DNA from: an uncultured bacterium
GTDB lineage: Bacteria > Patescibacteriota > Minisyncoccia > Phycocordibacterales > UBA918
Reading direction: 5' to 3'
Length of the DNA stretch: 42,022 nt
NCBI GenBank assembly: GCA_913050645.1
Contig: CAJXAG010000003.1
Span: 1 to 42,022, forward strand
Part shown: piece by piece, positions 69 through 42,022 of the stretch
How the letters are laid out: every line of letters begins with the position of its first letter
Position numbering within the stretch: position 1 is the first letter of the stretch
Position numbers and translations under genes: made by a program
The notes under the pieces: model-generated
Database searches by the model: none
The model's input: the letters and a program-made list of their open reading frames with translations, nothing else
Told to the model about the DNA's origin: nothing

Positions 69-518
69 TCAAGCTGGGCCCACTCTACTCGAATCAGTCC
101 ACCATATCATAATATCCGCACCGTTTTTTACCGCCTTGTCTGTCAGCACTGAAGTGAACACACCTTTTGGTTTTTTGATATTAGATTTATTAATTGATTT
201 GTTACAAATTAGCCCCGAAGTAGGAATAACTTGTTCTGCCGACCTCTCAACAGTATCGACTTTTATAAACTTAGACAATGAACCATCTATCGATACTGAA
301 ACTACTTCGGTCTTTTCTGTTTCAGCAGCTGACATTGAATTATTTTCTGCAGTCTCAGCGACTTCTGAATTCTGCGTAATTTCAGTCTCGCGATAACCTA
401 CATCTTCTATTTCCGATGGCTGGGTTGAAACTATTTCCTCTTTAGAAAATGGATAATAAATATAAACACCAGCTAGGAAAGTTGTGACAAATATAAGTAT
501 TGCTAGAGACTTGATCAT
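69..518 (-). CDS. hypothetical protein with N-terminal transmembrane/signal anchor
   Basis: 149-aa ORF; N-terminus MIKSLAILIFVTTFLAGVYIYYPF is a hydrophobic anchor; antisense ORF 64..396 judged spurious. Confidence 0.5.
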   Translation of the reverse strand: MIKSLAILIFVTTFLAGVYIYYPFSKEEIVSTQPSEIEDVGYRETEITQNSEVAETAENNSMSAAETEKTEVVSVSIDGSLSKFIKVDTVERSAEQVIPTSGLICNKSINKSNIKKPKGVFTSVLTDKAVKNGADIMIWWTDSSRVGPA

Positions 519-926
519 AATTATTAAATAGTTATTCTGTAACTATACCAAAACTACTACACTATGTTACTGTTTATTATTCCCTGAATCTTTGTATATC
601 TGTACACTTCTATCGCTATTACTAGATCATCTTCAAGAAATTAGGACACTCCATTTCAATCAAGGAGGTTTTCACCACAAGAGCATTTCCGAAATTATTG
701 TCGCTGACACCCCTTAATTTCTAGGTCAACTTGGTGCAAAGTATCAAAGAATGTCACTTCCAAGTAATTAAGTTTCAGCTCACTAACTGTCATGAGGACT
801 ATCATCCTAAGAAGACCACTTCACCGTATCGTATTGAGGAAATGACTCCACCGATTACCATTGCTTCAATTCCGTACATTGCAAAGATGCATCGCTACCA
901 AGAGTATTTGGCGAATGGAGGAAATC

Positions 927-2048
927 CTAACGATTGGCCAGAGCAACCATAGTGCGTACGTCGTGAATTATTGCATCAAGTATTGTTGACACTTGGTATG
1001 TATCATCAAAATTAATGGACTGGTAGAAATCAGTGAGACCATACTTATTAAAGGTCTTATGATCTTGGGTAGGATATACCTTTATATCATCCTTGATATG
1101 GTTAAATTTAAACCACTGATTTTCTTCTAAAAGCCGCTCGGCATATGCCCGAGTGGCTTTTCCGTATCCAGCGTAGCCTTGAAGCATTTGACTGTATCGA
1201 CGCTCTTGCAGTTGAATGGTTATGTATAAACCATCTTCGAGTAAGTAAAAAATATCAATGATGCCTTGGGCACGAATCATACCTGGTCCTATATAGATTA
1301 TTCCTCGCTCAAGCACTTTTGGTCTAGTTCCAAAATGAACGGTGATATCGGGCAGTTCTTTACCTAGACGCTTCGCTAACAAGGCACCCAGTGACTGGTA
1401 CTTAATTTTTAGATACACATCCGCCATGCGAATGTTCTGCAAAAGTTGGAGGGTAGGATCAGTCTCTGGTTTATAGAAAGTAAATTGGTCAGACTCTTTC
1501 ACATCCACATCCTTCATAACGTCACTGATAAAAGTAATGAAGTAGATGTAGTCTTCGAGGATGAGTTTGTCGTACTGACCAGTAGTTGTGGGGACGAGTG
1601 TCTTAAGCGCCTCCGCTAATTGACGGTAGGACATGGTGTGCCAGAAGATATCGAGAACAGGAATTTTATCGGTCTTGGTGAATTCGGGACGAGTGAGAGT
1701 AAGGAGGAGAAAGTTTTGATTGTCAGTGTGACCCTTTGAATATTCCTCAAGTTGTTCGATGTACGGAATACTCTTTACTTTATTCTCCAGAATAAGTTCT
1801 TGACCATTGGCAAAGAAAAGATGTACGTCGATATTTTTCTGCTCTCGCTCGATACGTGTGATGGTGAGATCATCAGTAGTATCTTTTAAGTATGGAGAAA
1901 AAAGTTTACCAACTTGCTCAGGATATTTTCCTGCCAGCCAAGCAATAAAGTTACTGTGAAAGAGCTCTTTTGAACCCAATGATAATTGGAAAAGAGGTGA
2001 CGCTTTTATAGCGTCAGCTTCCCCGATAGGGGATGTAGTTGTATTCAT
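927..2048 (-). CDS. PD-(D/E)XK nuclease superfamily-like protein
   Basis: 373-aa ORF; 'IDVHLFFANGQELILENKVKSIPYIEQLEEYSK' resembles the D...ExK core (ENK) of PD-(D/E)XK_4-type proteins. Confidence 0.7.
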   Translation of the reverse strand: MNTTTSPIGEADAIKASPLFQLSLGSKELFHSNFIAWLAGKYPEQVGKLFSPYLKDTTDDLTITRIEREQKNIDVHLFFANGQELILENKVKSIPYIEQLEEYSKGHTDNQNFLLLTLTRPEFTKTDKIPVLDIFWHTMSYRQLAEALKTLVPTTTGQYDKLILEDYIYFITFISDVMKDVDVKESDQFTFYKPETDPTLQLLQNIRMADVYLKIKYQSLGALLAKRLGKELPDITVHFGTRPKVLERGIIYIGPGMIRAQGIIDIFYLLEDGLYITIQLQERRYSQMLQGYAGYGKATRAYAERLLEENQWFKFNHIKDDIKVYPTQDHKTFNKYGLTDFYQSINFDDTYQVSTILDAIIHDVRTMVALANR

Positions 2049-2397
2049 ATTTTCTAGCGGGTTTTAGTTGTTGGAACCGATGACGAGTATCAAAAGGCTC
2101 CCAGCCATTGCGATCCAACCTTTCGGCCAGACCCATACCCGTTTCCAGATATGACCCGCTAGAGTGACTCTGACTGGGAGTCCTTTAATCTCTAGCGGGT
2201 ATTTACAACCATACCGCCAGCAAGCTGTCGGGTTAGGTCTGATTTGTAATGAACATAATAGCTCAATTTGAGCTATTAGTCAGTACCTTAGCTTAGTTTA
2301 AGGCTCTTACGAAGCCTCGGTTAACGACAGTTGCTTCCACATCACCACATAATTAAAGGGGTCTTATAAGGTAGAATATAAGTATATATTTGTTCCT

Positions 2398-3009
2398 ATG
2401 CAATCTCTTAAGACAATTCAACAAACTAACGATGCGATAATCAGAGAGGCTTTAGTCGGGCAACTTAAAACTGAATACTCTAAAAATCCAGAGTATCGTG
2501 TTATTCCTGAATTGGGTTTATGGCATGGTGCTTCGAGGATTGATGTCGCTGTGGTTAATGGTATTTTGCATGGGTTTGAAATCAAGAGCGATCGTGACAC
2601 ACTCAATCGTCTTCCTGATCAGAGAGAGGTGTATAACTCAATTTTTGATAAGGTTACTCTAGTTGTAGGAGCAAAACACTTTGTAGATGCATTTAAGATC
2701 GTTCCTGAATGGTGGGGTATCGAAACTGCACACTTAAATGAGGAAGGATCGGTTTTCTTCAATACAATACGTGAACCAAGAGAGAACCCAAAACAAGACG
2801 ATATTTCAATCGCACGATTACTATGGAGAAGCGAAGCTCTAGAATTGCTTGAAAGTATAGGTAGAGCTGATGGCGTTCGTTCAAAAACACGAGATGTAAT
2901 ATATACAAGAGTAGCTGAATCTATTGAGATAGATGTGCTTAAAAAGTATGTTAGGAATGTTCTTCAGGGACCCCGTCAAGACTGGAGGTCTGATGCGCAG
3001 CTAGCGTAA
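2398..3009 (+). CDS. sce7726-like family protein (PD-(D/E)XK-like)
   Basis: 203-aa ORF; 'RIDVAVVNGILHGFEIKSDRDTLNRLPDQREVYNSIFDKVTLVVG' fits the sce7726-type pattern with a D...ExK core. Confidence 0.7.
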   Translation: MQSLKTIQQTNDAIIREALVGQLKTEYSKNPEYRVIPELGLWHGASRIDVAVVNGILHGFEIKSDRDTLNRLPDQREVYNSIFDKVTLVVGAKHFVDAFKIVPEWWGIETAHLNEEGSVFFNTIREPRENPKQDDISIARLLWRSEALELLESIGRADGVRSKTRDVIYTRVAESIEIDVLKKYVRNVLQGPRQDWRSDAQLA

Positions 3010-4084
3010 GGTGGTGGTTTATACTGACGGTTAGCCATGTGGTTGGACTTCCTGGTTTAATATTTTCTGGCGAAGCAATTCTAGAAACCTCAGCATCGCC
3101 AAAACTGTATTTGTCCAGTTTATAGAAATCACGTTTTACTAGTGTTTGTGCGTGTGCAATATATTGTTCTCTTCCAGGCCCCTTGATTCCAGTTTTACGG
3201 TCAATATGACCAGGCTTTTTGCCTCTGAATATGTACCACTTTTCGTCATCTGTATATCGAATACTGGCGCTTCCAATAGCTGCTACATATTCGTAAATTG
3301 GGTGTTGAGTTGTGTAGTCAGAAAAGAAAGGTGTGCGAGAAGTTATTGTGTCACAAATATCATTCCAAAGTTTCCATTCAGTTCTCTCTAACTGGTGTAC
3401 TTCACCTGAATTAAAATTGGTTAAGTCCTTTGGGAAAGCACCCCCAGACACAATAAATGATCGCCACCCATCTAAGTTTGGTAAAAGATTAAGACTTTTT
3501 ACAACTTCAGCTGCCTCCGTTCCGCTATCGATAATGCGTAAATCAATCAGGAGATCAAGGTCACTAATGTTCAATTTGTTAACCTCAATAAAATCAGTTA
3601 GGTGCTTAGATAAGTCCGTATCTTTAAGATGGGATTTGTCTATACGAATACAGAGTCCGTGCCCACTCTCCTTTGCGTAGTTGACAGCAATTTTACGAGT
3701 TTCCATGTCTGCGTCAGTACTAGTTACAGGAATGACATAAATAACCGGGATAGAGAACAAATCAAGGTCACTTGATGAAGATAATATTTCCTTAAAAGAT
3801 GTGGCTCGGATATCGCTGTCTAGAAGATGAACGTCAATAAACACAGGCTCACGCCCACACGATTTAAGCAAGCTGGTTGCAACACCAGGTAATTTTTCTA
3901 GGAATTTCTCTTTTGGGGTTTTCTTAACTTCCCGAGTTTCTCTGTCGATTGACGGTGCGGGCATAATAAATTCGATCAGAGGTGTAATTTTATCTCGATC
4001 TTCTGGGAAGAGCTTTTCAACTGCAGCTATCTCAGCAGGTCTCCATCTCAGTATAGGTACATAGGGTCTAATAATATTTCTCAT
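2951..4084 (-). CDS. beta family protein (phage T4 beta-like / sce7725-like)
   Basis: 377-aa ORF; 'YVPILRWRPAEIAAVEKLFPEDRDKITPLIEFI' N-terminus typical of beta-protein family; lies next to the sce7726-like gene. Confidence 0.7.
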   Translation of the reverse strand: MRNIIRPYVPILRWRPAEIAAVEKLFPEDRDKITPLIEFIMPAPSIDRETREVKKTPKEKFLEKLPGVATSLLKSCGREPVFIDVHLLDSDIRATSFKEILSSSSDLDLFSIPVIYVIPVTSTDADMETRKIAVNYAKESGHGLCIRIDKSHLKDTDLSKHLTDFIEVNKLNISDLDLLIDLRIIDSGTEAAEVVKSLNLLPNLDGWRSFIVSGGAFPKDLTNFNSGEVHQLERTEWKLWNDICDTITSRTPFFSDYTTQHPIYEYVAAIGSASIRYTDDEKWYIFRGKKPGHIDRKTGIKGPGREQYIAHAQTLVKRDFYKLDKYSFGDAEVSRIASPENIKPGSPTTWLTVSINHHLTLAAHQTSSLDGVPEEHS

Positions 4085-4086
4085 AT

Positions 4087-5319
4087 TTATTCTTTAAACA
4101 CGTCTGCAAAATACTTTTGCACACTTAGGTCGGGGTTATTAACTATTTTGTTTAAGTAAAAGAAATTTTGATGTTTAAATCTAATCATGCCTGCTATAAC
4201 TGCTATGTTTACCTGTAATTCATTTGCCAAATCTTCTGTTGAAAATTGATTTGGAGTAGTTTTAGCTGCGCTTGTTTCCCATTTACTCTTAGGAAGAATA
4301 GCTTCTTCTGCAAGTGCATCTGCCTCAATTTCTTTTTGGTCATTTTCCTCACCGTCTTTATTTTGTAGTTCTTCGTCAAAGAAATATTCGATATTCATTT
4401 CGTAGTGAAGTGCCACGTGTGCAAGTTCATGCATAAGCGTAAACCAAAAATTGTCAGGACGATCGTGACGAATTGTAAGCCCAATAATTGGGTTGTCTTT
4501 ATCGGCAAAGAAAGTAGCACCGTCCAAATGTGATTTAGGAAGGTGGGGCTCAATAACCAGCTTAATACCGTGTTCTCCTAGATATTTTTGAGCAAGAAGT
4601 GGGCCAGTTGCTTTTGTGCTTAGTTGCACCACTTTGCGCATGAATGGCAAGTCCACGGTACCTTTCTTGTATTTTATAGGCACTTGTATTTCTGTAGCCT
4701 TCTGTAGTACTCGTGTGCCCCACGCAAGTAGTGAATTGTTGTCAGTACGAGGTGCTTTCCTAAAAATTGTCTTACGGTACAAGGCGGCTGGTTGAGGTTG
4801 GTTGAAAGTCGCAAAAAAGTTACTGACTAATTCTGATTTGCCAAAATCCTTAATAGTTTTATTCCCAAAGTAACCGCGCCGTTCCATGGCTTTCACTAAG
4901 GTAGTGTCCCAGTTTTCTGATTCAGAAGCGTTGTTAGATTTTTGTATAAGTACTTTTGCGGGGATTCCTAGACCAGTAGAAAGTGAACGAACCATGTCAA
5001 GTGAAAGTTGTCGTTTTCCAGAAAGAATCTCAGACACTCTACCCGCACTACCTACATAGGGAATTAGATCAGATGGTTTGAGATCTGCTTGCTCCATACG
5101 AAATTTAATTGCCTCGATTGGATCTGGGAGATTTTCGGGGAATGACTTTGATTCGTAGTCTTTTACTAGTGCTGTGAGAAGGAGTAGACGATCACCATCG
5201 ACAGTTCCAGATTCTGGATCACGATCAACTAACTCTTCAATGAAGTTGAGAGCATTTCGATATTCTTCTTTTGTTGTGATTATTTTTATGTTTTCCATAA
5301 GCGTTATTTGATCTCCCAT
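4087..5319 (-). CDS. XRE-family antitoxin (HigA-like) with C-terminal ImmA/IrrE metallopeptidase domain
   Basis: 410 aa; HTH segment 'LKPSDLIPYVGSAGRVSEILSGKRQLSLDMVRSLSTGLGIP' and zinc motif 'LMHELAHVALHYE'; overlaps the HigB gene by 16 bp. Confidence 0.85.
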   Translation of the reverse strand: MGDQITLMENIKIITTKEEYRNALNFIEELVDRDPESGTVDGDRLLLLTALVKDYESKSFPENLPDPIEAIKFRMEQADLKPSDLIPYVGSAGRVSEILSGKRQLSLDMVRSLSTGLGIPAKVLIQKSNNASESENWDTTLVKAMERRGYFGNKTIKDFGKSELVSNFFATFNQPQPAALYRKTIFRKAPRTDNNSLLAWGTRVLQKATEIQVPIKYKKGTVDLPFMRKVVQLSTKATGPLLAQKYLGEHGIKLVIEPHLPKSHLDGATFFADKDNPIIGLTIRHDRPDNFWFTLMHELAHVALHYEMNIEYFFDEELQNKDGEENDQKEIEADALAEEAILPKSKWETSAAKTTPNQFSTEDLANELQVNIAVIAGMIRFKHQNFFYLNKIVNNPDLSVQKYFADVFKE

Positions 5320-5591
5320 TTTTCATACTCTTTATGAGTACCAACATTTTTTACGAACACGACTCCACTGTTGTATGCGACTTTTACCCATAGACGGTAA
5401 TTATTTCCATAAATATTAAATACCACTTGTTTATTACCTATTAAGCTGGCTTTAGGGAAGTGAGCCTTCAGATCGTGGGGTCCCTTCCATGTCAATTCCC
5501 TTATTTCTGCTTCCCAGGCGTCAACATGGGATCTGGCATCAGAATGCTTTTGCTTAAAGGCATCAAGAATTTCTTTTCCGATTAGTTCCAT
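5304..5591 (-). CDS. higB: HigB-family type II toxin (mRNA interferase)
   Basis: 95 aa; 'ARSHVDAWEAEIRELTWKGPHDLKAHFPKASLIGNKQVVFNIYGNNYRLWVKVAYNSGVVFVKNVGTHKEYEKW' matches HigB_toxin-type pattern. Confidence 0.85.
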   Translation of the reverse strand: MELIGKEILDAFKQKHSDARSHVDAWEAEIRELTWKGPHDLKAHFPKASLIGNKQVVFNIYGNNYRLWVKVAYNSGVVFVKNVGTHKEYEKWEIK

Positions 5592-5726
5592 ATATTTAAT
5601 AAATTTTTGATACCTGTGTATTAGTTCCCACTACGGGAAGTATATTATAGGTACTCTTAAGTTGTCAAGAGTCAAGAACCAGAACCCCTAGACTTACTAG
5701 AGGGATTGCGTCATTAGTGTTGGTAT

Positions 5727-7055
5727 ATGAGCAGAACAGAGGCACCAGAGGGATTTGTATCCAAACATACGTTTACACCTGTAACTACACGCTATTGCCT
5801 CTATGCTCGCAAGTCTACAGAGTCTGAGGAGCAGCAGGTTCTTTCAATCGACTCACAGATTAAGGAGATGCTCCAGATGGCAGAACGAGACAATTTAGAG
5901 ATTGTCGAAATCAAGAAAGAATCACACTCTGCCAAGGAGGCTGGGATGAGACCTGTCTTCAACGAGATCGTGGACGAGATAAAGTCTGGCAAATTTAACG
6001 GAATATTGACATGGGCTCCAGATCGTATTTCAAGAAATGCTGGTGACCTTGGGAGGATTGTTGATCTCATGGACTCAGGATTATTGCAGGAGATACGAAC
6101 GTATGGACAAAAGTTTAGTAACAATCCAAACGAGAAGTTCCTGCTAATGATTCTCGGCTCACAAGCCAAACTTGAGAACGATAATAAGGTGGTGAACGTA
6201 AAGCGAGGAATGAGAGCTAGGTGTGAGATGGGGCTGTATCCATGCATTGCGCCAACAGGATATTCAAATAGTAAGAATGTAGATAAGCGGTGTCATATTG
6301 AAATAGATGCAGAACGAGCACCGATAGTGAAGAAGATGTTTGAAAAGATTGCCTATGAAAACCTAACAGGCAGACAACTCTACTTTTGGCTAAGAGATGA
6401 AGCGAATTACAAAACAAGAACTGGTAAACAACTTCATCTCGGAAATCTCTATATGATTTTGCGAAACCATTTCTACTACGGCACATTTCAATATCCGAAG
6501 AATAGCGGGCAGTGGTATAAGGGTGCTCACGAGCCACTGATTAGTAAGGCGTTGTTTGATCAGGTACAAGAAAAAATACAGGTACAAAATACCCGAGGTG
6601 GTGGTATGCAAACAAAAGAGTTTGCCTTCACAAAGCTGATGTCTTGCGCACTTTGCGGATCAGGAATTACGGCTGACGAAAAGTATAAAACTCAGAAGAA
6701 TGGAAACACCCATCGCTATGTCTACTATGGGTGCTGTAAGTCGAATGATAGGAGTTGTACCTCGGGCTATATCAATGAGGATGACCTGGTCGAACAGCTA
6801 GTTGCCCTGATGGACAAGATTGAGTTCAACGACATCGGAATGAGGCAAAAAATAAAAGCGGAGATAGAGAGGCATAAAAAGTTCCAGTCGGGATTACTTG
6901 GTGAAAAAGAATCGAAGATAAAGGTAAAAGATGTCGAGGTTAGGAGTTATGCTAAGTACATCTTGAGAGAGGGGCAGACGCATGAGAAGAGAGAGTTGCT
7001 GTCGTGTTTGAAGAGTAGGATATGTGTCGCTAATAAACTGGTTAGCCTAAAATAG
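5727..7055 (+). CDS. serine recombinase (resolvase/invertase N-terminal domain plus recombinase and zinc-ribbon domains)
   Basis: 442 aa; 'RYCLYARKSTESEEQQVLSIDSQI' catalytic N-terminus; 'LMSCALCGSGITADEKYKTQKNGNTHRYVYYGC' zinc ribbon. Confidence 0.9.
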   Translation: MSRTEAPEGFVSKHTFTPVTTRYCLYARKSTESEEQQVLSIDSQIKEMLQMAERDNLEIVEIKKESHSAKEAGMRPVFNEIVDEIKSGKFNGILTWAPDRISRNAGDLGRIVDLMDSGLLQEIRTYGQKFSNNPNEKFLLMILGSQAKLENDNKVVNVKRGMRARCEMGLYPCIAPTGYSNSKNVDKRCHIEIDAERAPIVKKMFEKIAYENLTGRQLYFWLRDEANYKTRTGKQLHLGNLYMILRNHFYYGTFQYPKNSGQWYKGAHEPLISKALFDQVQEKIQVQNTRGGGMQTKEFAFTKLMSCALCGSGITADEKYKTQKNGNTHRYVYYGCCKSNDRSCTSGYINEDDLVEQLVALMDKIEFNDIGMRQKIKAEIERHKKFQSGLLGEKESKIKVKDVEVRSYAKYILREGQTHEKRELLSCLKSRICVANKLVSLK

Positions 7056-7059
7056 GCTT

Positions 7060-7108
7060 AAGTACACCTTTACGTAAATGTTTACAACATTTACGTAAAG
7101 GTGTACTT
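7060..7108. repeat. 23-bp perfect inverted repeat, 3-nt loop
   Basis: aagtacacctttacgtaaatgtt / tac / aacatttacgtaaaggtgtactt; each arm contains the self-complementary tttacgtaaa. Confidence 0.95.
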
Positions 7109-7115
7109 TTGGGAT

Positions 7116-7334
7116 ATGGAAAGCGATAAAAGAAAAAGATTTAAGCGGTTGGCCGCACAACGTACAGAAAAGGTGCTTCAAAAGCTCCACGTTCTTGGTA
7201 ATTGCTCAAACCGCAGTTCTTATGAATATAGTGAAGAGGATATTAACAAGATCTTCTCAGAAATCGACAAGGCAGTGAAAAACACCAAGTCACGATTCAA
7301 TTATCCACGTAAGCGTAGTCAGTTTAAGCTTTAG
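7116..7334 (+). CDS. small basic hypothetical protein
   Basis: ORF track start 7101 lies inside the palindrome; the internal ATG at 7116 (MESDKRKRFKRLAAQRTEKVLQ) is more plausible. Confidence 0.5.
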   Translation: MESDKRKRFKRLAAQRTEKVLQKLHVLGNCSNRSSYEYSEEDINKIFSEIDKAVKNTKSRFNYPRKRSQFKL

Positions 7335-7338
7335 TATT

Positions 7339-7455
7339 ATGTCAGTAAAAGTTCACATTTCTCCCCACATCGTTAATTCTGTTGCAAGTCTCTATAATGA
7401 TTCTAATAGAATCTTTATGGAGTATATTGATAATGCGATCGATAGTTGCCGAGGA
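7339..7455 (+). pseudogene. N-terminal fragment of a GHKL/HATPase-type protein
   Basis: 'VNSVASLYNDSNRIFMEYIDNAIDSC' resembles the N-box of GHKL ATPases, then homology is lost at a junction around 7450-7465. Confidence 0.5.
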
Positions 7456-7532
7456 CGCCGAGCGGCAAGCATCATGAGCACGGCTACAACTGCTCCTGCG
7501 TATCCTAATGAGAGTGCGTGAAGTGTTTTCAT
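7401..7532 (-). pseudogene. truncated small membrane protein N-terminus
   Basis: Minus-strand ATG at 7532 reads MKTLHALSLGYAGAVVAVLMMLAAR..., a membrane start that degenerates at the same junction; about 44 codons to the stop. Confidence 0.45.
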
Positions 7533-7626
7533 ATTTTTATGATTAGTTGTTAATTCTGCATAGAGTGTGCAAATTAAGTTGACACCTAATACCCCATTGA
7601 GGTATGGTACTATAAGTATAAAATAT

Positions 7627-9156
7627 ATGAAAAAAATATCTTTTTATCTCGTCGTCGTAGTTATTATAGGTATAGCCCTTATCTCTTTGTGGTCGTATCA
7701 AAAATATTTTAAGGGGGAAGAAGTAGAGCTTTTGTTGTTCAGTGTGGAGAGAGGAAGCATGCAAGAGATTGTAAAAGTAAGAGGCGAGGTGGTTTCTCAA
7801 ACAGACTTCGATTTAGGCTTTCCTTTTTCGGGGATAATAGAAAATATTTTTGTCCAAGAGGGACAAGAGGTCAAAAGTGGAGACCCGCTTATGAAACTGG
7901 AGATCACAGATTTTGAACTGGAGAGAGGAAAGTTGCAGGCACAATTGGATGGAGCTAAGGCTGACCTCGCACTGCAGGAGGCGGACTTAAAGAGAGCACA
8001 GATTGAGTCAACAAATACTCAAACGAACCTTGCTAAGGTGATTGAAGAGCAAGACACACTGGTAAAAAATGCGTTTCGTACGCTTCTTTCTAGCAACCTT
8101 GAAGCACTTCCAGTAGACAAAGGAAACGACGACATCGCACCTTTGGTGAGCGGAACCTATTCTTGCGATACGGAAGGCTCATACACGCTTTCTACGTATA
8201 GTTCTGCCGCTAACTCCGGGTACTCATACAGACTTTCTGGGCTTGAGACCGGTACCTACACCGCATACACGGAGTCCCCCGCTCCATTTGGCACATGCGG
8301 TCTATCGCTCCAATTTGTTGATGGTGAGGCATACAGGAACCGAGACTGGACTATTGCAATTCCAAACACAAGAAGTGCTGCATATATCGGAAATTTAAAT
8401 GCATACGAGGAAGCAATCAAGGTGCGCGACCTTGCTGTCGAGAAAGCGCGCGCTTTACTTGAAGAGAGACTCAAGAATGCTGGGCTTGAATCTGAACGTG
8501 ACGAAGCAGTGACTTCTATGGAACAAATGACAGCGCAAGATGCCCGAGTGGAGAAGGCAAAGGCCACCATACGAAACTATCAGGCGCAAATCGCGACTGT
8601 TCTAGAAAAAATTAAAAAATCTACGCTCTATGCACCCGCTGATGCGGCAGTTGCAAAACTCTGGTTTGAGAAGGGTGAGTTTTTCAGCCCTAACCAAATA
8701 GGTGTTTCACTGTCGACTTCTGGACACAAGATTCAAGCCGATATATCTGAGTTGGAAATAGGGAAAATAAATGAAGTTGATGGAAGCAAAGTACTCATAC
8801 AGCTTGATGCATTTCCGGACGTGAAATTTACCGGCAACATTGTTTCCATAGAACCAAGAGAAATAGTGAAAGAGGGAGACAAGTATTACCGAACTAATGT
8901 GTATGTAGAACCACACGGTTCAGAAATTCGTGCAGGAATGAATGCTGACTTAATGATACTCACCTCGTCTAAGGATGACGTATTAAAAATTCCTGAATTT
9001 GTAGTGTACAAAAAGGACGACAAAGAGTTCGTAACGGTACTGGTGGGAGACCTGCAAGAAGAGGTGGAGATTGAAACAGGCATTTCTGACGGTGAGTTTA
9101 TTGAAGTTGAAAGCGGGCTGCGTGAGGGTCAGACGGTGGTCTTTTCCGCTGATTAG
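7627..9156 (+). CDS. periplasmic adaptor / membrane fusion protein (MacA/HlyD-like)
   Basis: N-terminal TM; 'GEVVSQTDFDLGFPFSGIIENIFVQEGQEVKSGDPLMKLE' biotinyl-lipoyl-like motif; promoter TTGACA(7579)-N18-TATGGT(7603). Confidence 0.85.
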   Translation: MKKISFYLVVVVIIGIALISLWSYQKYFKGEEVELLLFSVERGSMQEIVKVRGEVVSQTDFDLGFPFSGIIENIFVQEGQEVKSGDPLMKLEITDFELERGKLQAQLDGAKADLALQEADLKRAQIESTNTQTNLAKVIEEQDTLVKNAFRTLLSSNLEALPVDKGNDDIAPLVSGTYSCDTEGSYTLSTYSSAANSGYSYRLSGLETGTYTAYTESPAPFGTCGLSLQFVDGEAYRNRDWTIAIPNTRSAAYIGNLNAYEEAIKVRDLAVEKARALLEERLKNAGLESERDEAVTSMEQMTAQDARVEKAKATIRNYQAQIATVLEKIKKSTLYAPADAAVAKLWFEKGEFFSPNQIGVSLSTSGHKIQADISELEIGKINEVDGSKVLIQLDAFPDVKFTGNIVSIEPREIVKEGDKYYRTNVYVEPHGSEIRAGMNADLMILTSSKDDVLKIPEFVVYKKDDKEFVTVLVGDLQEEVEIETGISDGEFIEVESGLREGQTVVFSAD

Positions 9157-9166
9157 TCTTAATATC

Positions 9167-10027
9167 ATGGAACAAAAATACACAAACCAAAAAAATGATT
9201 CAGTTTGTGGAATGAATTTAGAAGGGCTGGATGATATTCCAGAGACCGTTCATAACGGTAACCAGTTTTTCTTTTGTGGAAATTTTTGTAAAAAACGATT
9301 TGAAAGTAACCCAGAAAAATTCCAAGGGACGCCGCTTATTGCCCTGAGGGAGGTGCGAAAGAGTTTTATAGTCGGCAATGTCGAGACCAAGGTGCTTAGA
9401 GGCCTTAATCTCAATATCTGGGAGGGTGATTTTGTAGCTATTGTCGGTTCAAGCGGCTCTGGCAAGAGTACGGCATTAAATATGATAGGGCTGCTTGATC
9501 GGCCTACGTCTGGTTCCATTTTACTGAACGGAGAGGATGTATCTGTGCTTGGGGACGATGTGCGAGCCGGATTTCGCTCACATACTTTTGGTTTTATTTT
9601 TCAACAGTACAACCTTATACCGTGGCTTACTGCGTATGAGAATGTAACGCTTCCTCTCATCTTTTCAAATAAAACAGCTGATTCAGGCACATTAGAGGCT
9701 CGTTTTCACGATTTTGGTCTTGCCGCACGCTTGGCACATAGACCTTTTGAACTTTCAGGAGGAGAACAGCAGCGCACAGCTCTTTTGCGGGCACTGGCTA
9801 ATGATCCTGAAATAATTTTGGGAGATGAACCAACTGGCAATCTTGATTCTGTAACCGGAAACAAAATTTTGGAAATATTGATAAATTTAAATAAAATCCA
9901 AAAGAAGACACTTATCATTGTCACGCACGATGATGATATTGCAGAAAAAGCGGATCAGGTTATTATTTTCAAAGATGGCCAGCTTGAACGTAACCACGAG
10001 GTGCAAAGAAAAATTTACACTGAATAA
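9167..10027 (+). CDS. ABC transporter ATP-binding protein (MacB/LolD-like) with N-terminal YHS-like domain
   Basis: Walker A GSSGSGKST, signature LSGGEQQR, Walker B ILGDEPT; N-terminus 'DSVCGMNLEG...FFFCGNFCKKRFESNPEKF' is YHS-like. Confidence 0.9.
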   Translation: MEQKYTNQKNDSVCGMNLEGLDDIPETVHNGNQFFFCGNFCKKRFESNPEKFQGTPLIALREVRKSFIVGNVETKVLRGLNLNIWEGDFVAIVGSSGSGKSTALNMIGLLDRPTSGSILLNGEDVSVLGDDVRAGFRSHTFGFIFQQYNLIPWLTAYENVTLPLIFSNKTADSGTLEARFHDFGLAARLAHRPFELSGGEQQRTALLRALANDPEIILGDEPTGNLDSVTGNKILEILINLNKIQKKTLIIVTHDDDIAEKADQVIIFKDGQLERNHEVQRKIYTE

Positions 10028-10029
10028 AT

Positions 10030-11235
10030 ATGTTTAAAAATTTCATCATTTTGACGTTAAAGGGAATCAGGTACAGGCCGATTAGAGGGTGGCTGACGAT
10101 TTTGGGTATTGTAATCGGCATTATGCTGGTGGTCATCATTCTCGCTTTGGGTGGCGGGATTCAAAGTGCTGTAAGTAAAACCCTCCAGATGTTTGGCTCT
10201 GATCTCATTATGATATTGCCCGGCAAAGAGAGTAACCCGCTTGTAGGGTTCTTAGGAGCTCAGAAATTTAAAGAAAGAGATTTAATGGATTTAGAAAATA
10301 TTCCGGGTGTAAGATTCGTCCTGCCGATGGAGATAGCAACGATAAACCTTGAATATAAAGGGGAGAAAAAATCTTCAATGGTCCACGCCTCGCCGTGGCG
10401 CGGTTTGAAGGAAACCTACGAAGAATCACAAGGCCTCAACCTGGAAAAAGGCAGATGGCCAACTGACGAAAGAGCAAGCGAAGTTGTTTTGGGCTATAAA
10501 GCGGTTAACAATCTTTTTAAAAACAAGATACAACTCGGAGATGAAATTATCATCAAATCAAAAAGAATGAAGGTCGTCGGCATTGTCTCTGAAGTAGGAG
10601 AACAGATGTCTGACAATATCATTTTTATATCGTTAGATATTTTCCGCGATATGACCGGTTCAAGAGGAACCGCCGGCTCGGCTTTTGTGAAGGCCGCGCC
10701 GGATGCGAATATTAACCTTGTTGCCAAACAAATAAAATTTCAACTCTCTAAGCAAGAGGTAGTACGCGATTTCTCCGTTTTAACACCAGAAAAATCCGAT
10801 CGATTGATCGGCAACGTACTTTCGATTATTGAGCTTGTCCTGCTGGTGGTTGCCTTAATCTCACTGATTGTTGGTGCAGTAGGAATTATGAACACAATGT
10901 ATACGTCTGTCTTGGAACGAACAAAGCAGATTGGCGTCATGAAAGCCATCGGTGCTTCAAGTGATGCTATTCTGTCACTATTTCTTATAGAATCAGGAAT
11001 GATAGGTCTCGTCGGGGGAATGCTAGGAATTATTTTCGGAATATTTTCCGCGTATCTCATCAGTTTAGCAGCTGCTGGCCTTGGTATTAGAGGGCTATTC
11101 TCTTTTGCTTCGTTGGATTTTCTCGGCTTCTTAGTGGTTTTGTTCCTCACCTTCATTATTGGGATAATAGCTGGAGCATTGCCGGCAAGACAGGCATCCA
11201 AAATGGAGCCAGCAGACGCACTGCGGTACGAGTGA
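10030..11235 (+). CDS. ABC transporter permease (MacB/FtsX-like)
   Basis: 401 aa; N-terminal TM, periplasmic MacB-PCD-like region, C-terminal FtsX-like TM block ('GIMNTMYTSVLERTKQIGVMKAIGAS'). Confidence 0.9.
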   Translation: MFKNFIILTLKGIRYRPIRGWLTILGIVIGIMLVVIILALGGGIQSAVSKTLQMFGSDLIMILPGKESNPLVGFLGAQKFKERDLMDLENIPGVRFVLPMEIATINLEYKGEKKSSMVHASPWRGLKETYEESQGLNLEKGRWPTDERASEVVLGYKAVNNLFKNKIQLGDEIIIKSKRMKVVGIVSEVGEQMSDNIIFISLDIFRDMTGSRGTAGSAFVKAAPDANINLVAKQIKFQLSKQEVVRDFSVLTPEKSDRLIGNVLSIIELVLLVVALISLIVGAVGIMNTMYTSVLERTKQIGVMKAIGASSDAILSLFLIESGMIGLVGGMLGIIFGIFSAYLISLAAAGLGIRGLFSFASLDFLGFLVVLFLTFIIGIIAGALPARQASKMEPADALRYE

Positions 11236-11378
11236 CATGTTTAACCTCACAATTACATAGAGAAGCTAATAGGGGTGTTTCAGTAACATCGCGTACATGT
11301 GTCAACTTGTTATAATGAATTGAATGTCACTACGCGCTTTTATTTGATGATATATTCTATTTTGAGAGTTTTAAAATC

Positions 11379-11641
11379 ATGACCACTGCACTTCTTACAA
11401 GTATTATTATTGCTGGCATACTTGGCGTAATCCATTTCTGGAACGAGAAATTCGTATTGGCCGGTAGTAAACGCCAGTTGGCAGTTTCATTTGTCGCGGG
11501 TACCTTCCATTACCAATAGAAAAAAACCCGAAAGATGCAGATCAAATTAAGAAACAGTTGGGTAATGTCTTTAAGCAAAAGTGGGAAAGTCAAAAAGGAA
11601 TGGAGGCTATAACAAAACAATACGGAAGATTTACTACTTAA
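11379..11641 (+). pseudogene. two fused gene remnants (membrane-protein N-terminus and unrelated C-terminus)
   Basis: MTTALLTSIIIAGILGVIHFWNEKFVLAGSKRQLAVSFVAGT then stop; another frame gives PLPIEKNPKDADQIKKQLGNVFKQKWESQKGMEAITKQYGRFTT*. Confidence 0.45.
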
Positions 11642-11674
11642 TTTGATTAACTCTGAAGAGTCTAGCATTGCAAC

Positions 11675-11705
11675 AATAAAACCACCCATATAGGGTGGTT
11701 TTATT
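11675..11705. terminator. intrinsic terminator
   Basis: aataaaaccaccc-atata-gggtggttttatt. Confidence 0.8.
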
Positions 11706-11775
11706 GTTTAGCACTGTTCGTGAGTCTCTTCTGAGCTAATCGAGCATTTTAGCCCTCTCAGTAGGTCTCGCTACG

Positions 11776-11851
11776 TGGTGCCCCTACTAGGAATCGAACC
11801 CAGATCAAGAGCTTAGAAGTCTCCTGTTTTATCCATTAAACTATAGGGGCA
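11776..11851 (-). tRNA. tRNA-Arg (anticodon TCT), CCA encoded
   Basis: Reverse complement TGCCCCTATAGTTTAATGGATAAAACAGGAGACTTCTAAGCTCTTGATCTGGGTTCGATTCCTAGTAGGGGCACCA folds as a cloverleaf; loop CTTCTAA. Confidence 0.9.
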
Positions 11852-11981
11852 GTTACTACTGCATCGTGCAGTGGCAATACAATACCAGAAGTTTTCTAAT
11901 ATATAAACAAAAGAAAAGAGCGGCCCAGACATTCCAATGAAATGATGATGCGAACGTGGGCGCGCTCTACGTTGTGCCGCT

Positions 11982-12113
11982 TCAGTGAAGCGGGTATTCT
12001 TTTGCAGCTTTTTCAAACTCAGACCCCCCTTCAGTGAGCGTTCCTTGATGGATAGCTTTCCAGAGGTTGGGGTGGTGAAATTTGAGCAGCTCGTGTTTGC
12101 TTAGGGCATGCAT
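11982..12113 (-). CDS. small hypothetical protein (43 aa)
   Basis: MHALSKHELLKFHHPNLWKAIHQGTLTEGGSEFEKAAKEYPLH* preceded by aaaggaggaatcgat (strong SD); stop sits in hairpin ccgcttca-g-tgaagcgg. Confidence 0.5.
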   Translation of the reverse strand: MHALSKHELLKFHHPNLWKAIHQGTLTEGGSEFEKAAKEYPLH

Positions 12114-12255
12114 ATCGATTCCTCCTTTGTGCAGTGACCTAATCTCACTATACCTCTATACAAGGATTAAAAATGTGGTGTGGTGTGGATAAGTGTCATG
12201 AAGCATGGTTCTATAGGTACAATAAAAAGAAGGTTATAAGATAATTTCAATTCAT

Positions 12256-12495
12256 ATGGAATTAGTATACTTTGTGCTCGTAGGTGCTATTGCAGGTTTT
12301 CTTGCAAGTAAAATGATGAAAATGGAGTCAAATCTCGTGATGGCCATTGTGGTCGGTATCGTTGGTGGCTTCGTAGGAGGCTGGGGCTTGGGACAGCTTG
12401 GGCTTATGCTTCCGTGGGGTATGGTTGGAGAAATTATTACTGCTGCGTTAGGTGCGGTGGTACTTCTGTATCTTTATAAACTGGTGGCAAAATAG
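12256..12495 (+). CDS. GlsB/YeaQ/YmgE-like (transglycosylase-associated) membrane protein
   Basis: 79 aa; glycine-rich TM helices 'GAIAGFLASKMMK...IVGIVGGFVGGWGLG'. Confidence 0.75.
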   Translation: MELVYFVLVGAIAGFLASKMMKMESNLVMAIVVGIVGGFVGGWGLGQLGLMLPWGMVGEIITAALGAVVLLYLYKLVAK

Positions 12496-12505
12496 CTATT
12501 GTACC

Positions 12506-12544
12506 AAATAAAAAACGCAGCTGTGTCGCTGCGTTTTTTATTTG
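12506..12544. terminator. intrinsic terminator
   Basis: aaataaaaaacgcagc-tgtgtc-gctgcgttttttattt. Confidence 0.85.
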
Positions 12545-12625
12545 GTGTAGTAGATTTGTCTTTTGATCACTAGTAAAGCGTAAAGATTCGTGTACAGTAA
12601 TATATAGATTAAACAGGAGGTAATC

Positions 12626-12904
12626 ATGTTTTCAAAATTGTTCCCCTGGGCGTTCTTCTTTAACTGGATGCCCTATCCTCGCCGATTTTGGGTTCTCGGG
12701 CCGTTTACACAACTGTTTTATGTTCCGTTGTATCGTACATATGAGGCAGCAGTAGTTTCCTACTATAAGAAACAACTACGTGAACTCGATTTCTGGTATG
12801 CGATGTCCGAGGCAAGTAAAGAACTTATCCGTCGCCGTGAGCTTGCACGTGAGCAGGGTATTGGCCCCGCGGATCCCGAGTATCCTAATCTGCATGATGT
12901 TTAG
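12626..12904 (+). CDS. hypothetical protein
   Basis: 92 aa; SD aggagg upstream; terminator immediately downstream. Confidence 0.6.
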   Translation: MFSKLFPWAFFFNWMPYPRRFWVLGPFTQLFYVPLYRTYEAAVVSYYKKQLRELDFWYAMSEASKELIRRRELAREQGIGPADPEYPNLHDV

Positions 12905-12932
12905 AAGACCAACTTTAAGCATCTATAAAAAG

Positions 12933-12958
12933 AAAACCCGCCAAATCTGGCGGGTTTT
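12933..12958. terminator. intrinsic terminator
   Basis: aaaacccgcc-aaatct-ggcgggtttt. Confidence 0.85.
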
Positions 12959-12968
12959 GTTTAGGTGC

Positions 12969-13622
12969 TTAACCAACAACCCTAAAGGCAATAATGTTCC
13001 ATCCGCTTTTCGGATCATCTGGTGGTCGATGACGCCAGCAAACCTGTGGCCATTGTTTGGCACGTACGGGGGCTCTAGGAATGCCACTTTGTACCTCCAC
13101 TGCGACTATTGCGTCTGGGGCAACCGGCCGGTCCCCACCTGTCCAAGGGATCATTCCATCTTTTCGAGGTTTCAGTTTTGTCACTGCGTCACCAGTTTTG
13201 ATGATGCCGCTGCTAACTACGTCGGCAATCAAACCACCGCGATCGAAGAACACTTTACGAAAACTGTCGGTGATACCTGCAAGCTTGCTGGGTCGTTGGC
13301 AGGGGTCACAATACCGTACCCCTTGAAACGTTACTGCTCCGACGGTGAACATTTGACCGATAAGATCCATCAGCTCAATATCATGAGTGATGAAGTTTCG
13401 TCGTGCATCGGCGTATTTGAATTCGGTCCTTTCAAAAAAGATACCGTTGATCAACGTTACTTGTCGATGGCCTGGCTTGCCTTTGTTCCAGCTACCAGCA
13501 CCTCCATGGTACCGGTCTCCGACCAGGCCCATGCCTGCTTCAGCATAAACTTCATCGATGGTCTTGAGCTCCTCGCCAGCTTCTGGTGCAATACAAATTG
13601 CGGTGACTGTGCCGTTTGGCAT
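12969..13622 (-). CDS. MOSC domain-containing protein
   Basis: ATG at 13622 with SD gaaaggaaac; 'VGDRYHGGAGSWNKGKPGHRQVTLINGIFFE...QGVRYCDPCQRP' MOSC-like. Confidence 0.75.
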   Translation of the reverse strand: MPNGTVTAICIAPEAGEELKTIDEVYAEAGMGLVGDRYHGGAGSWNKGKPGHRQVTLINGIFFERTEFKYADARRNFITHDIELMDLIGQMFTVGAVTFQGVRYCDPCQRPSKLAGITDSFRKVFFDRGGLIADVVSSGIIKTGDAVTKLKPRKDGMIPWTGGDRPVAPDAIVAVEVQSGIPRAPVRAKQWPQVCWRHRPPDDPKSGWNIIAFRVVG

Positions 13623-40063: not shown

Positions 40064-41920
40064 TTACCTGTCTTCACCGCGCAACTGCTGCAAGAGCAGT
40101 TCAACGTCTTCCGGCGAAAGCTGGTTGACGGTTGCCTCGAGGTCTGAGCGTTGCATTTCCGCCTCATAGCGCGCAAAGACCGACTCGGCCCGAGCGTCCA
40201 TCACCTCCTGTAGTTCACTTTCGGCGAGTGTCAGCACGAGGTTGTCGAAGGTTTCCACTTCGATGACGGCCGGCTCGGTGTTGATGGTTGAGAGTACGAT
40301 AGGTTCGCCAACGAGGCTCGCTGCCACCTCTGCCGAGCGTGTGCCACCGACCAGAAACACCTTGTCGGTGACGGTGTCGAGACGTACGTAGAAGTACGTA
40401 TCGCCGTCTTGGATAACCGGCTGCAAGCTCAGGAGTAAACCTTCGTAGAAGGTTGCCTCAAGGTCTGCATTGCCTTCGAAGGCGCCGATACCTTGGTTTT
40501 CACGCGCCGAGCGCAGGTATGCCCGCACCGCTTCGGTGACCGTGTCGCCCGTGCCGTAGATATCACGGCTCCGCTGTGAAACGAGTCCGAAACCTTTGCG
40601 AGCGCCATTGGCATCGGTGATGACCGAGAAGTAGGTTTCCATTCCGCTCACTTGGATGAGAATGGGGTTCTCGGCCGACCAGCCATCGAAGTTCGAAATT
40701 GCACCGTTGATGGTTCTTATTGCGGTAACTTCGGTAATACCGGCCCGGCGATAGAACTGGACTTCGCCGGTCCGCGCGTTTACGGTCGCTACACCCGAGG
40801 TCGCTTCGCTGTCAGCGCGTGCGAACTGGGTGCCGGTCACGTAAATCATGGTGCCGGTTTCATTCATAGTGACGACCATGTCCGGTGTCGGGTCGATGAC
40901 GTTCTCATTGGTGAAGTAGCAAGCCACCCATCCTTGCGAGAAGCAGCCCCAGTCTTCGAGGCGAGCCTCGATGACGTCCTGCGAATATGCACGGTCAACC
41001 CAAGTGGGGATTTCCGAAACGTCATTGGCTTCGGTGATATTGCCCGTGGTCGCGTTGACGATGAGCCAACGCTCGGGGTAGTTTGCAAAGAAGCCGACCT
41101 GTGGTCGCTCGAGCGGTACCACGTAGTACGGTACACCAGCGTCGTCCACCTGGAAGAATGGCTCGCCAAAGTTGAAGTTGATGTAGCCATTGAGGTAGAT
41201 GTGACGGTTCAAGTCTCGCGCCCAGAAGAAACCTTCCGAGCCGTAGGCAATCGGCTGGTCTTCCACGAGCTCCGCATCGGTCGAATTGATGTGCGAAGCC
41301 ACGAAGTAGCCAGGGGTTGTCCCATTGCCGAGCCAGCGCAAGAAGCCCGAGTGCACGAGTGGCGAAATCCAGACCGGTTCACCCGCTTCGGTGACGCCTG
41401 CGTAGATTTCACCAAAGTTCGTGCGGGAGGCGAGTCCCGACTCTTCAGCCGAGCCAATGAGTTCGGCACCGCGCTTGAGTGCGAGATCGGAGGTCACCCG
41501 CTGTGCCTGCTCTTGCGAGACGAGCGAGAGGGTGCTCTCCATCGTGCCGTTGTCGGTGATGTCGATAACCGATGCTAGCGATGTGGAACGGAAGAATCCG
41601 CTGCTCGCAATCGAGCCGACAATGATGACAAGAATGATGCATGCAGGCACGATGAGTGCCGCTGGTGCGCGGCTGTCAAGATTATCCTGGCCCAGCATGA
41701 TGGTCATGCCAGCTGCTGCTCCAGTCGCAATCATGAGCATGAACCATGTTCCGATCATGTCTAACGAAAACGGAGGCAACATCAACCACGAGATAATGTA
41801 GAAGTCCACGAATAGTAGCAGGGCAGAGAAGATCTGCGGCTTCTGCCGGAAGATCAGTCCAAAGGCTACGGTTGCGATTGCCGCAATACCGCCCCAGATG
41901 AGGAATCCGATTGAAAACAT
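40064..41920 (-). CDS. large membrane protein, multi-TM N-terminus plus large extracytoplasmic domain
   Basis: ATG 41920 (MFSIGFLIWGGIAAIATVAFGLIF...) with SD aaggaaagga; hydrophobic N-terminal segments followed by a long soluble region. Confidence 0.75.
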   Translation of the reverse strand: MFSIGFLIWGGIAAIATVAFGLIFRQKPQIFSALLLFVDFYIISWLMLPPFSLDMIGTWFMLMIATGAAAGMTIMLGQDNLDSRAPAALIVPACIILVIIVGSIASSGFFRSTSLASVIDITDNGTMESTLSLVSQEQAQRVTSDLALKRGAELIGSAEESGLASRTNFGEIYAGVTEAGEPVWISPLVHSGFLRWLGNGTTPGYFVASHINSTDAELVEDQPIAYGSEGFFWARDLNRHIYLNGYINFNFGEPFFQVDDAGVPYYVVPLERPQVGFFANYPERWLIVNATTGNITEANDVSEIPTWVDRAYSQDVIEARLEDWGCFSQGWVACYFTNENVIDPTPDMVVTMNETGTMIYVTGTQFARADSEATSGVATVNARTGEVQFYRRAGITEVTAIRTINGAISNFDGWSAENPILIQVSGMETYFSVITDANGARKGFGLVSQRSRDIYGTGDTVTEAVRAYLRSARENQGIGAFEGNADLEATFYEGLLLSLQPVIQDGDTYFYVRLDTVTDKVFLVGGTRSAEVAASLVGEPIVLSTINTEPAVIEVETFDNLVLTLAESELQEVMDARAESVFARYEAEMQRSDLEATVNQLSPEDVELLLQQLRGEDR

Positions 41921-42022
41921 AAAGAAGTCCTTTCCTTGGTGAAGTTGGTTGTGAAGAACAGAGATAATGCTTCCCAACCTTTAAATACAGTCATAGAATA
42001 GAAGTCTATGAACAAAGGAAAA

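Follow-up and report, generated by a model that had tools for sequence, protein, structure and literature searches.

A probable four-gene variant of the PD-lambda-2 defence system with a nuclease-like gene overlapping the beta gene

In a 42,022-nucleotide stretch of contig CAJXAG010000003.1 from an uncultured Patescibacteria bacterium, referred to here as the window, a HigB-like gene (A), a gene for an Xre-type protein with a metallopeptidase domain (B) and a beta gene (C) stand in a row on the minus strand, and the question arises as to what kind of system they form and whether it ends with these three genes. A sequence-only reading had proposed a tripartite anti-phage or abortive system, which was right in kind, as A, B and C match the PADLOC PD-Lambda-2 models, but a tripartite system of this sort had already been described. 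Its count of three genes also fell short, since the locus contains a fourth, the convergent sce7726/cII nuclease-like gene D, which was overlooked because the interval considered started at the beta stop (position 2951).

Genes and regulatory features of the locus

The features of the window on which the analysis is based are as follows.

5304–5591, minus strand: A, HigB-like protein of 95 aa, PD-Lambda-2_A (PADLOC 4.9e-37; Pfam HigB_toxin 9.4e-26)
4087–5319, minus strand: B, Xre/HigA-like helix-turn-helix plus M78 zinc-metallopeptidase, 410 aa, PD-Lambda-2_B (PADLOC 5.8e-131)
2951–4084, minus strand: C, beta protein of 377 aa, PD-Lambda-2_C, predicted TIM-barrel-like (Pfam Beta_protein 5.7e-63; PADLOC 1.9e-44)
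2398–3009, plus strand: D, sce7726/P4-cII-like predicted PD-(D/E)XK nuclease of 203 aa, convergent with beta (NF033832 1.5e-48; PADLOC cll 3.4e-26)
2951–3009, both strands coding: C/D overlap of 59 bp (ORF coordinates; conserved spacing; constrained third codon positions)
5639–5668, minus strand: sigma-70-like promoter of A-B-C just upstream of A, TTGACA-18-TATACT (11/12 matches)
5625–5639, no strand: palindrome TTCCCGTAGTGGGAA beside the -10 element, putative operator for B (with A), with motif matches in relatives
5727–7055, plus strand: large serine recombinase divergent from A, mobility context and not a component (Pfam Resolvase/Recombinase)

The three minus-strand reading frames recognized earlier were confirmed as real, correctly placed and of the families named (HigB_toxin, Peptidase_M78 and Beta_protein). 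A matched the HigB structure 5ycl_B in the PDB (phmmer 1.5e-6), and the N-terminal half of B was Xre/HigA-like, its profile matching HigA 5ycl_A (3e-13). The M78 assignment of B (Pfam Peptidase_M78, 7e-11) was accompanied by the HExxH zinc site already noticed, HELAH at residues 297–301, of which H297, E298 and H301 were invariant in 16 aligned homologues. For the beta protein, the former label "beta/sce7725-like" was upheld by Pfam Beta_protein, but no NCBIfam model matched, so that "sce7725-like" is loose. Its AF2 model (pLDDT 86.5) gave weak TM-scores of 0.2–0.6 in a fold search, the sole match below E 0.001 being a designed TIM barrel, and a TIM-barrel-like fold is thus predicted.

As reported before, 16 bp are shared by A (5304–5591) and B (4087–5319); between B and C there are two free bases, instead of a beta start 3 nt past the B stop. 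The order A-B-C on one strand and the tight packing are those of PD-lambda-2, and at the sequence level A, B and C are established as one operon behind a predicted promoter, similar promoters being present in relatives. The motif TTCCC-N3-ATGGGAA reached at least 10 of 12 positions in 9 of 11 four-gene loci; as it had been read off such loci, the fairer test was provided by 15 further loci, either E. coli-type or A-B only; at least 10 of 12 was reached in 11 of them, at scores attained by only 0–6 of 150 random stretches per locus. These matches suggest that B autoregulates the operon via the palindrome, for which its HigA-like half would be the obvious binder.

The identity of D was examined by homology and structure prediction. 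It matched the PADLOC model "cll", the P4 cII protein, and in 20 homologues E38, R47, D49, E61, K63 and Q75 were invariant and S64, D67 and R71 likewise shared, a layout predicted to be that of a PD-(D/E)XK nuclease. A sequence search of D against the PDB gave chance matches only. Two of the five AlphaFold models exceeded pLDDT 79, and the sole significant fold match was 3dnx (E 7e-6, TM 0.44/0.58), presumably an MmcB-like protein. We infer that D belongs to the system as a component.

The beta-D junction

The last 59 bp of D are antisense to the 3' end of the beta gene, and the same frame relation was found in 46 of 54 overlapping beta-D pairs. In 45 of 60 loci, precisely 39 nt separated the invariant His358 of beta from Arg193 of D, and this spacing occurred in Patescibacteria, Proteobacteria, Actinobacteria and phages with betas just 21–28% identical to that of the window. 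Agreement at fourfold-degenerate third positions was 59% within the overlap vs 28% elsewhere for beta and 67% vs 28% for D, and in a scan along beta the overlap ranked at the top of 68 windows; these comparisons draw on shared sequences and lack independence, the contrast nonetheless being large. The distance matrices of beta and D were correlated (Mantel r 0.70; 0 of 2000 permutations), and their nearest neighbours agreed in only 28 of 54 cases. The register of the overlap thus looks locked, and the simplest reading is that the overlap is homologous, going back to a single ancestral beta-D junction. Because any indel within it would damage both proteins, beta and D are expected to be inherited as a unit.

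A convergent D adjoined beta in 57 of 65 full-length beta loci (those labelled ABCD, -BCD or --CD and the window's own row), a share biased upwards because most loci were found through D, the layout being unaffected by this. Aligned over all groups, beta was too divergent to serve for scanning viral contigs, and a narrower alignment found nothing there; the beta loci were therefore collected by searches seeded with D or B and by searches of plasmids and phages. Even the betas from the phage and plasmid searches, in which D played no part, mostly had D, the exceptions lacking it being L047, L051 and L190. D was present yet unannotated in Gordonia and Mycolicibacterium phages and a Marinibacterium plasmid; unannotated sce7726 genes overlapping beta in public records were located at L038:3983–4657, L044:3659–4309 and L053:4528–5124 (all minus strand).

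The modules also occurred in other combinations. Beta faced D without A-B in 41 of the 65 loci, on phages, plasmids and P4 (gop-beta-cII), the pair standing alone or behind gop, and A-B occurred without C-D on plasmids and phages. In L046, L048 and L049, B-C-D was preceded by a DUF6932 gene (PF22014) at the HigB position, and DUF6932 may stand in for HigB as a partner of Xre-M78 proteins. In L048 (pNDM-AP_882, 1811–13013), an IS30/blaNDM-1 segment interrupts the beta gene of the DUF6932-B-beta-D arrangement. In L100 and L104, beta is immediately preceded by small ORFs whose membrane-type starts resemble each other; the match of the L100 ORF to P4 gop (E 1e-5) suggests that relatives of gop-beta-cII exist in other phages. 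The nuclease-like gene pairs with a second family too, as a tandem sce7726-sce7725 pair in the same orientation in L199, from another genome of the phylum (161–2049, minus strand).

Distribution and genomic context

Relatives of B, sought in the genomes of 85,000 species, yielded ten loci; B, C and D occurred together in nine, with A also present in the eight uncut by a contig end, and the tenth carried a distant B (38%) in an A-B pair only. In the uncut loci of the window's clade, A-B-C faced D in 12 of 12, the set including the window, L013 and L014 from a phylum search and L211 from another genome of the window's genus. The four-gene loci span Patescibacteria, Bacteroidales and FCPU426 MAGs, the nearest homologues of the window's B being found in Patescibacteria MAGs. 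Among 380 genomes of the Patescibacteria phylum, a full-length B was found in four, the same four had beta above the cut-off, and sce7726 occurred in these and in one genome with an sce7725 gene. Weak matches to the PADLOC B model in many Patescibacteria were rejected as partial Xre or M78 proteins, not PD-lambda-2-type loci.

No D adjoining beta was found at four E. coli A-B-C loci (L186–L189, of which L188 and L189 are near-identical), including the reference-type locus of strain C (L187; 619 and 544 bits against the PADLOC B and C models), nor at L111, an inovirus-like contig with a full A-B-C. The four D-less E. coli loci, set against the 12 of 12 in the window's clade, define an E. coli type without D and a window's type with it. 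In the beta tree these form two clades (supports 100/99 for the window's type and 100/100 for the E. coli type), and the B tree splits them likewise, the four-gene B clade and beta clade coinciding. A single origin of A-B-C was not rejected (AU p 0.48). In L002, L003 and L005, B and C overlap by 4 nt; in L004, a 171-aa ORF (7263–7775, plus strand) sits between B and beta.

Within the window's genus the system was present in 2 of 38 genomes. Serine recombinases were also found near L002 and L006, and the flanks of relatives held type I, II, IIG and III restriction, Gabija and GmrSD-type genes; the recombinases, the defence-gene flanks and the patchy presence in the genus together give a mobile defence-island pattern. 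The recurrent A-B-C synteny and defence setting that had been anticipated, with restriction systems and Gabija in relatives' flanks, were thus borne out, and the association of beta with the toxin-antitoxin-like pair, whose failure to recur had been named as counter-evidence, does recur across genomes. The recombinase of the window, a distant Ccr-like one followed by short ORFs (5727–7334), scored 6e-32 against the CcrB model, far below that model's cut-off. Element ends were not found, as direct repeats around the locus were short and weak and the window starts where the contig itself starts; the flanking MacA/FtsX-type genes showed no synteny in the genus. A PD-(D/E)XK gene adjoining the system (927–2048, minus strand; PDDEXK_4 3e-7, weakly similar to the PADLOC candidate PDC-S26) was considered as a fifth component and rejected, being found in no related locus. 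A 637-aa ORF at 40064–41977 (minus strand) had no Pfam or NCBIfam match.

Relation to described systems and proposed mechanism

PD-lambda-2 was described in E. coli as a three-gene abortive-infection system in which the Xre-protease B is toxic alone and is neutralised by the HigB-like A, C being dispensable for neutralisation and required for defence against lambda-vir (Vassallo et al. 2022, PMC9519451). Like the window, it has a HigB-like A, a HigA-like B with an M78 domain and a beta gene in the same order and on one strand, with an operator-like palindrome upstream, and B identity across the aligned PD-lambda-2 family ranges from 42% or less to 67%. By this analogy, the roles of toxin and antitoxin earlier given to HigB and the Xre-M78 protein are probably reversed. 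The two differ in that the E. coli loci L186–L189 lack a D beside beta, whereas the window's clade has a convergent, overlapping one.

The gop-beta-cII system of satellite P4 protects against lambda and P1, and its beta was reported as an antitoxin of gop (Rousset et al. 2022, PMC9122126). As in the window, beta is convergent with an sce7726/cII gene; however, the membrane protein gene gop stands directly upstream of beta in place of B, a 27-nt gap replaces the 59-bp overlap, and the two betas are only 22% identical. In the Rac-SA53 prophage and similar phages, beta and D are convergent with a 41-bp overlap, the same frame relation and the same 39-nt spacing, but without A or B upstream. Alphaproteobacterial and Acinetobacter plasmids carry B, C and D in the window's layout, with DUF6932 (PF22014) replacing HigB at A. 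The HigBA type II toxin-antitoxin systems share the HigB-HigA gene order, and A and B match solved HigB and HigA structures; the HigBA antitoxin, however, is a small helix-turn-helix protein without further domains, whereas B of the window has 410 aa and an M78 domain, the corresponding protein of E. coli PD-lambda-2 is itself toxic, and C and D are additional.

Considering these comparisons, we regard the locus as probably a four-gene PD-lambda-2 variant within a mobile defence island, in which an autoregulated A/B switch would control a beta-D effector pair. A and B would jointly repress the operon at TTCCC-N3-ATGGGAA, and A would hold B inactive, as in E. coli PD-lambda-2. Phage infection would disturb the A-B complex, so that B is freed, the operon derepressed and the infected cell arrested. 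Beta would be needed for the antiviral outcome, a requirement demonstrated in E. coli only, acting with its inherited partner D, which would cut nucleic acid, most likely DNA. It is a guess that D is the effector and that beta acts as sensor or adaptor. Systems of this kind do not strictly need D, as E. coli PD-lambda-2 defends without an adjoining D.

The occurrence of beta facing D without A-B in 41 of 65 beta loci, including Rac-SA53 and P4, and of A-B without C-D on plasmids and phages, would also fit a beta-D defence module merely lying beside a HigB-Xre-M78 toxin-antitoxin pair, the halves being independent. This is unlikely, given that B and C lie within a few bases of each other (2 nt apart in the window, 4-nt overlaps in L002, L003 and L005), that the four-gene B and beta clades are the same, and that E. 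coli A-B-C defence requires C (PMC9519451). Rather unlikely, too, is a toxin-antitoxin-like pair in which beta would keep the D nuclease in check, with the antisense 3' ends contributing to the balance of their doses; the frame-locked overlap and the precedent of an inhibitory beta, that of P4 acting against gop (PMC9122126), are in its favour, but beta is retained in the absence of D in E. coli PD-lambda-2, L047, L051 and L190, and PD-lambda-2 C is unneeded for toxin neutralisation (PMC9519451).

It is very unlikely that the locus is an addiction module that stabilises a mobile element with a serine recombinase and plays no part against phages in the window: the adjoining recombinase, those near L002 and L006 and the presence in 2 of 38 genomes would agree with it, whereas the whole-length homology to a tested anti-phage system and the restriction systems and Gabija around relatives argue against it. 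That the locus is a decayed, non-functional remnant is extremely improbable, since signs of decay were looked for in the window and none found, and the four intact frames, motifs, promoter and palindrome are retained. Besides the favoured four-gene variant, we tentatively consider an extended, possible though somewhat doubtful scheme in which the overlap itself is functional, keeping beta-sce7726 inseparable as a portable effector module and tying nuclease expression to beta. Different modules acting as triggers (HigB-Xre-M78, DUF6932-Xre-M78, gop or none) would have become attached to it; PD-lambda-2 and gop-beta-cII would then represent two versions of a single system, the E. coli PD-lambda-2 being derived by loss of the nuclease.

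The kind of system is already known; the novelty lies in the four-gene form and in the beta-D link to gop-beta-cII, through which two defence systems treated as unrelated are connected. In nearly all cases beta forms a locked pair with a nuclease-like gene, which thus becomes its likely partner, and the observations suggest that annotation tools listing three PD-lambda-2 genes overlook one more gene across much of the family. For Patescibacteria, one more defence system is added to their small genomes.
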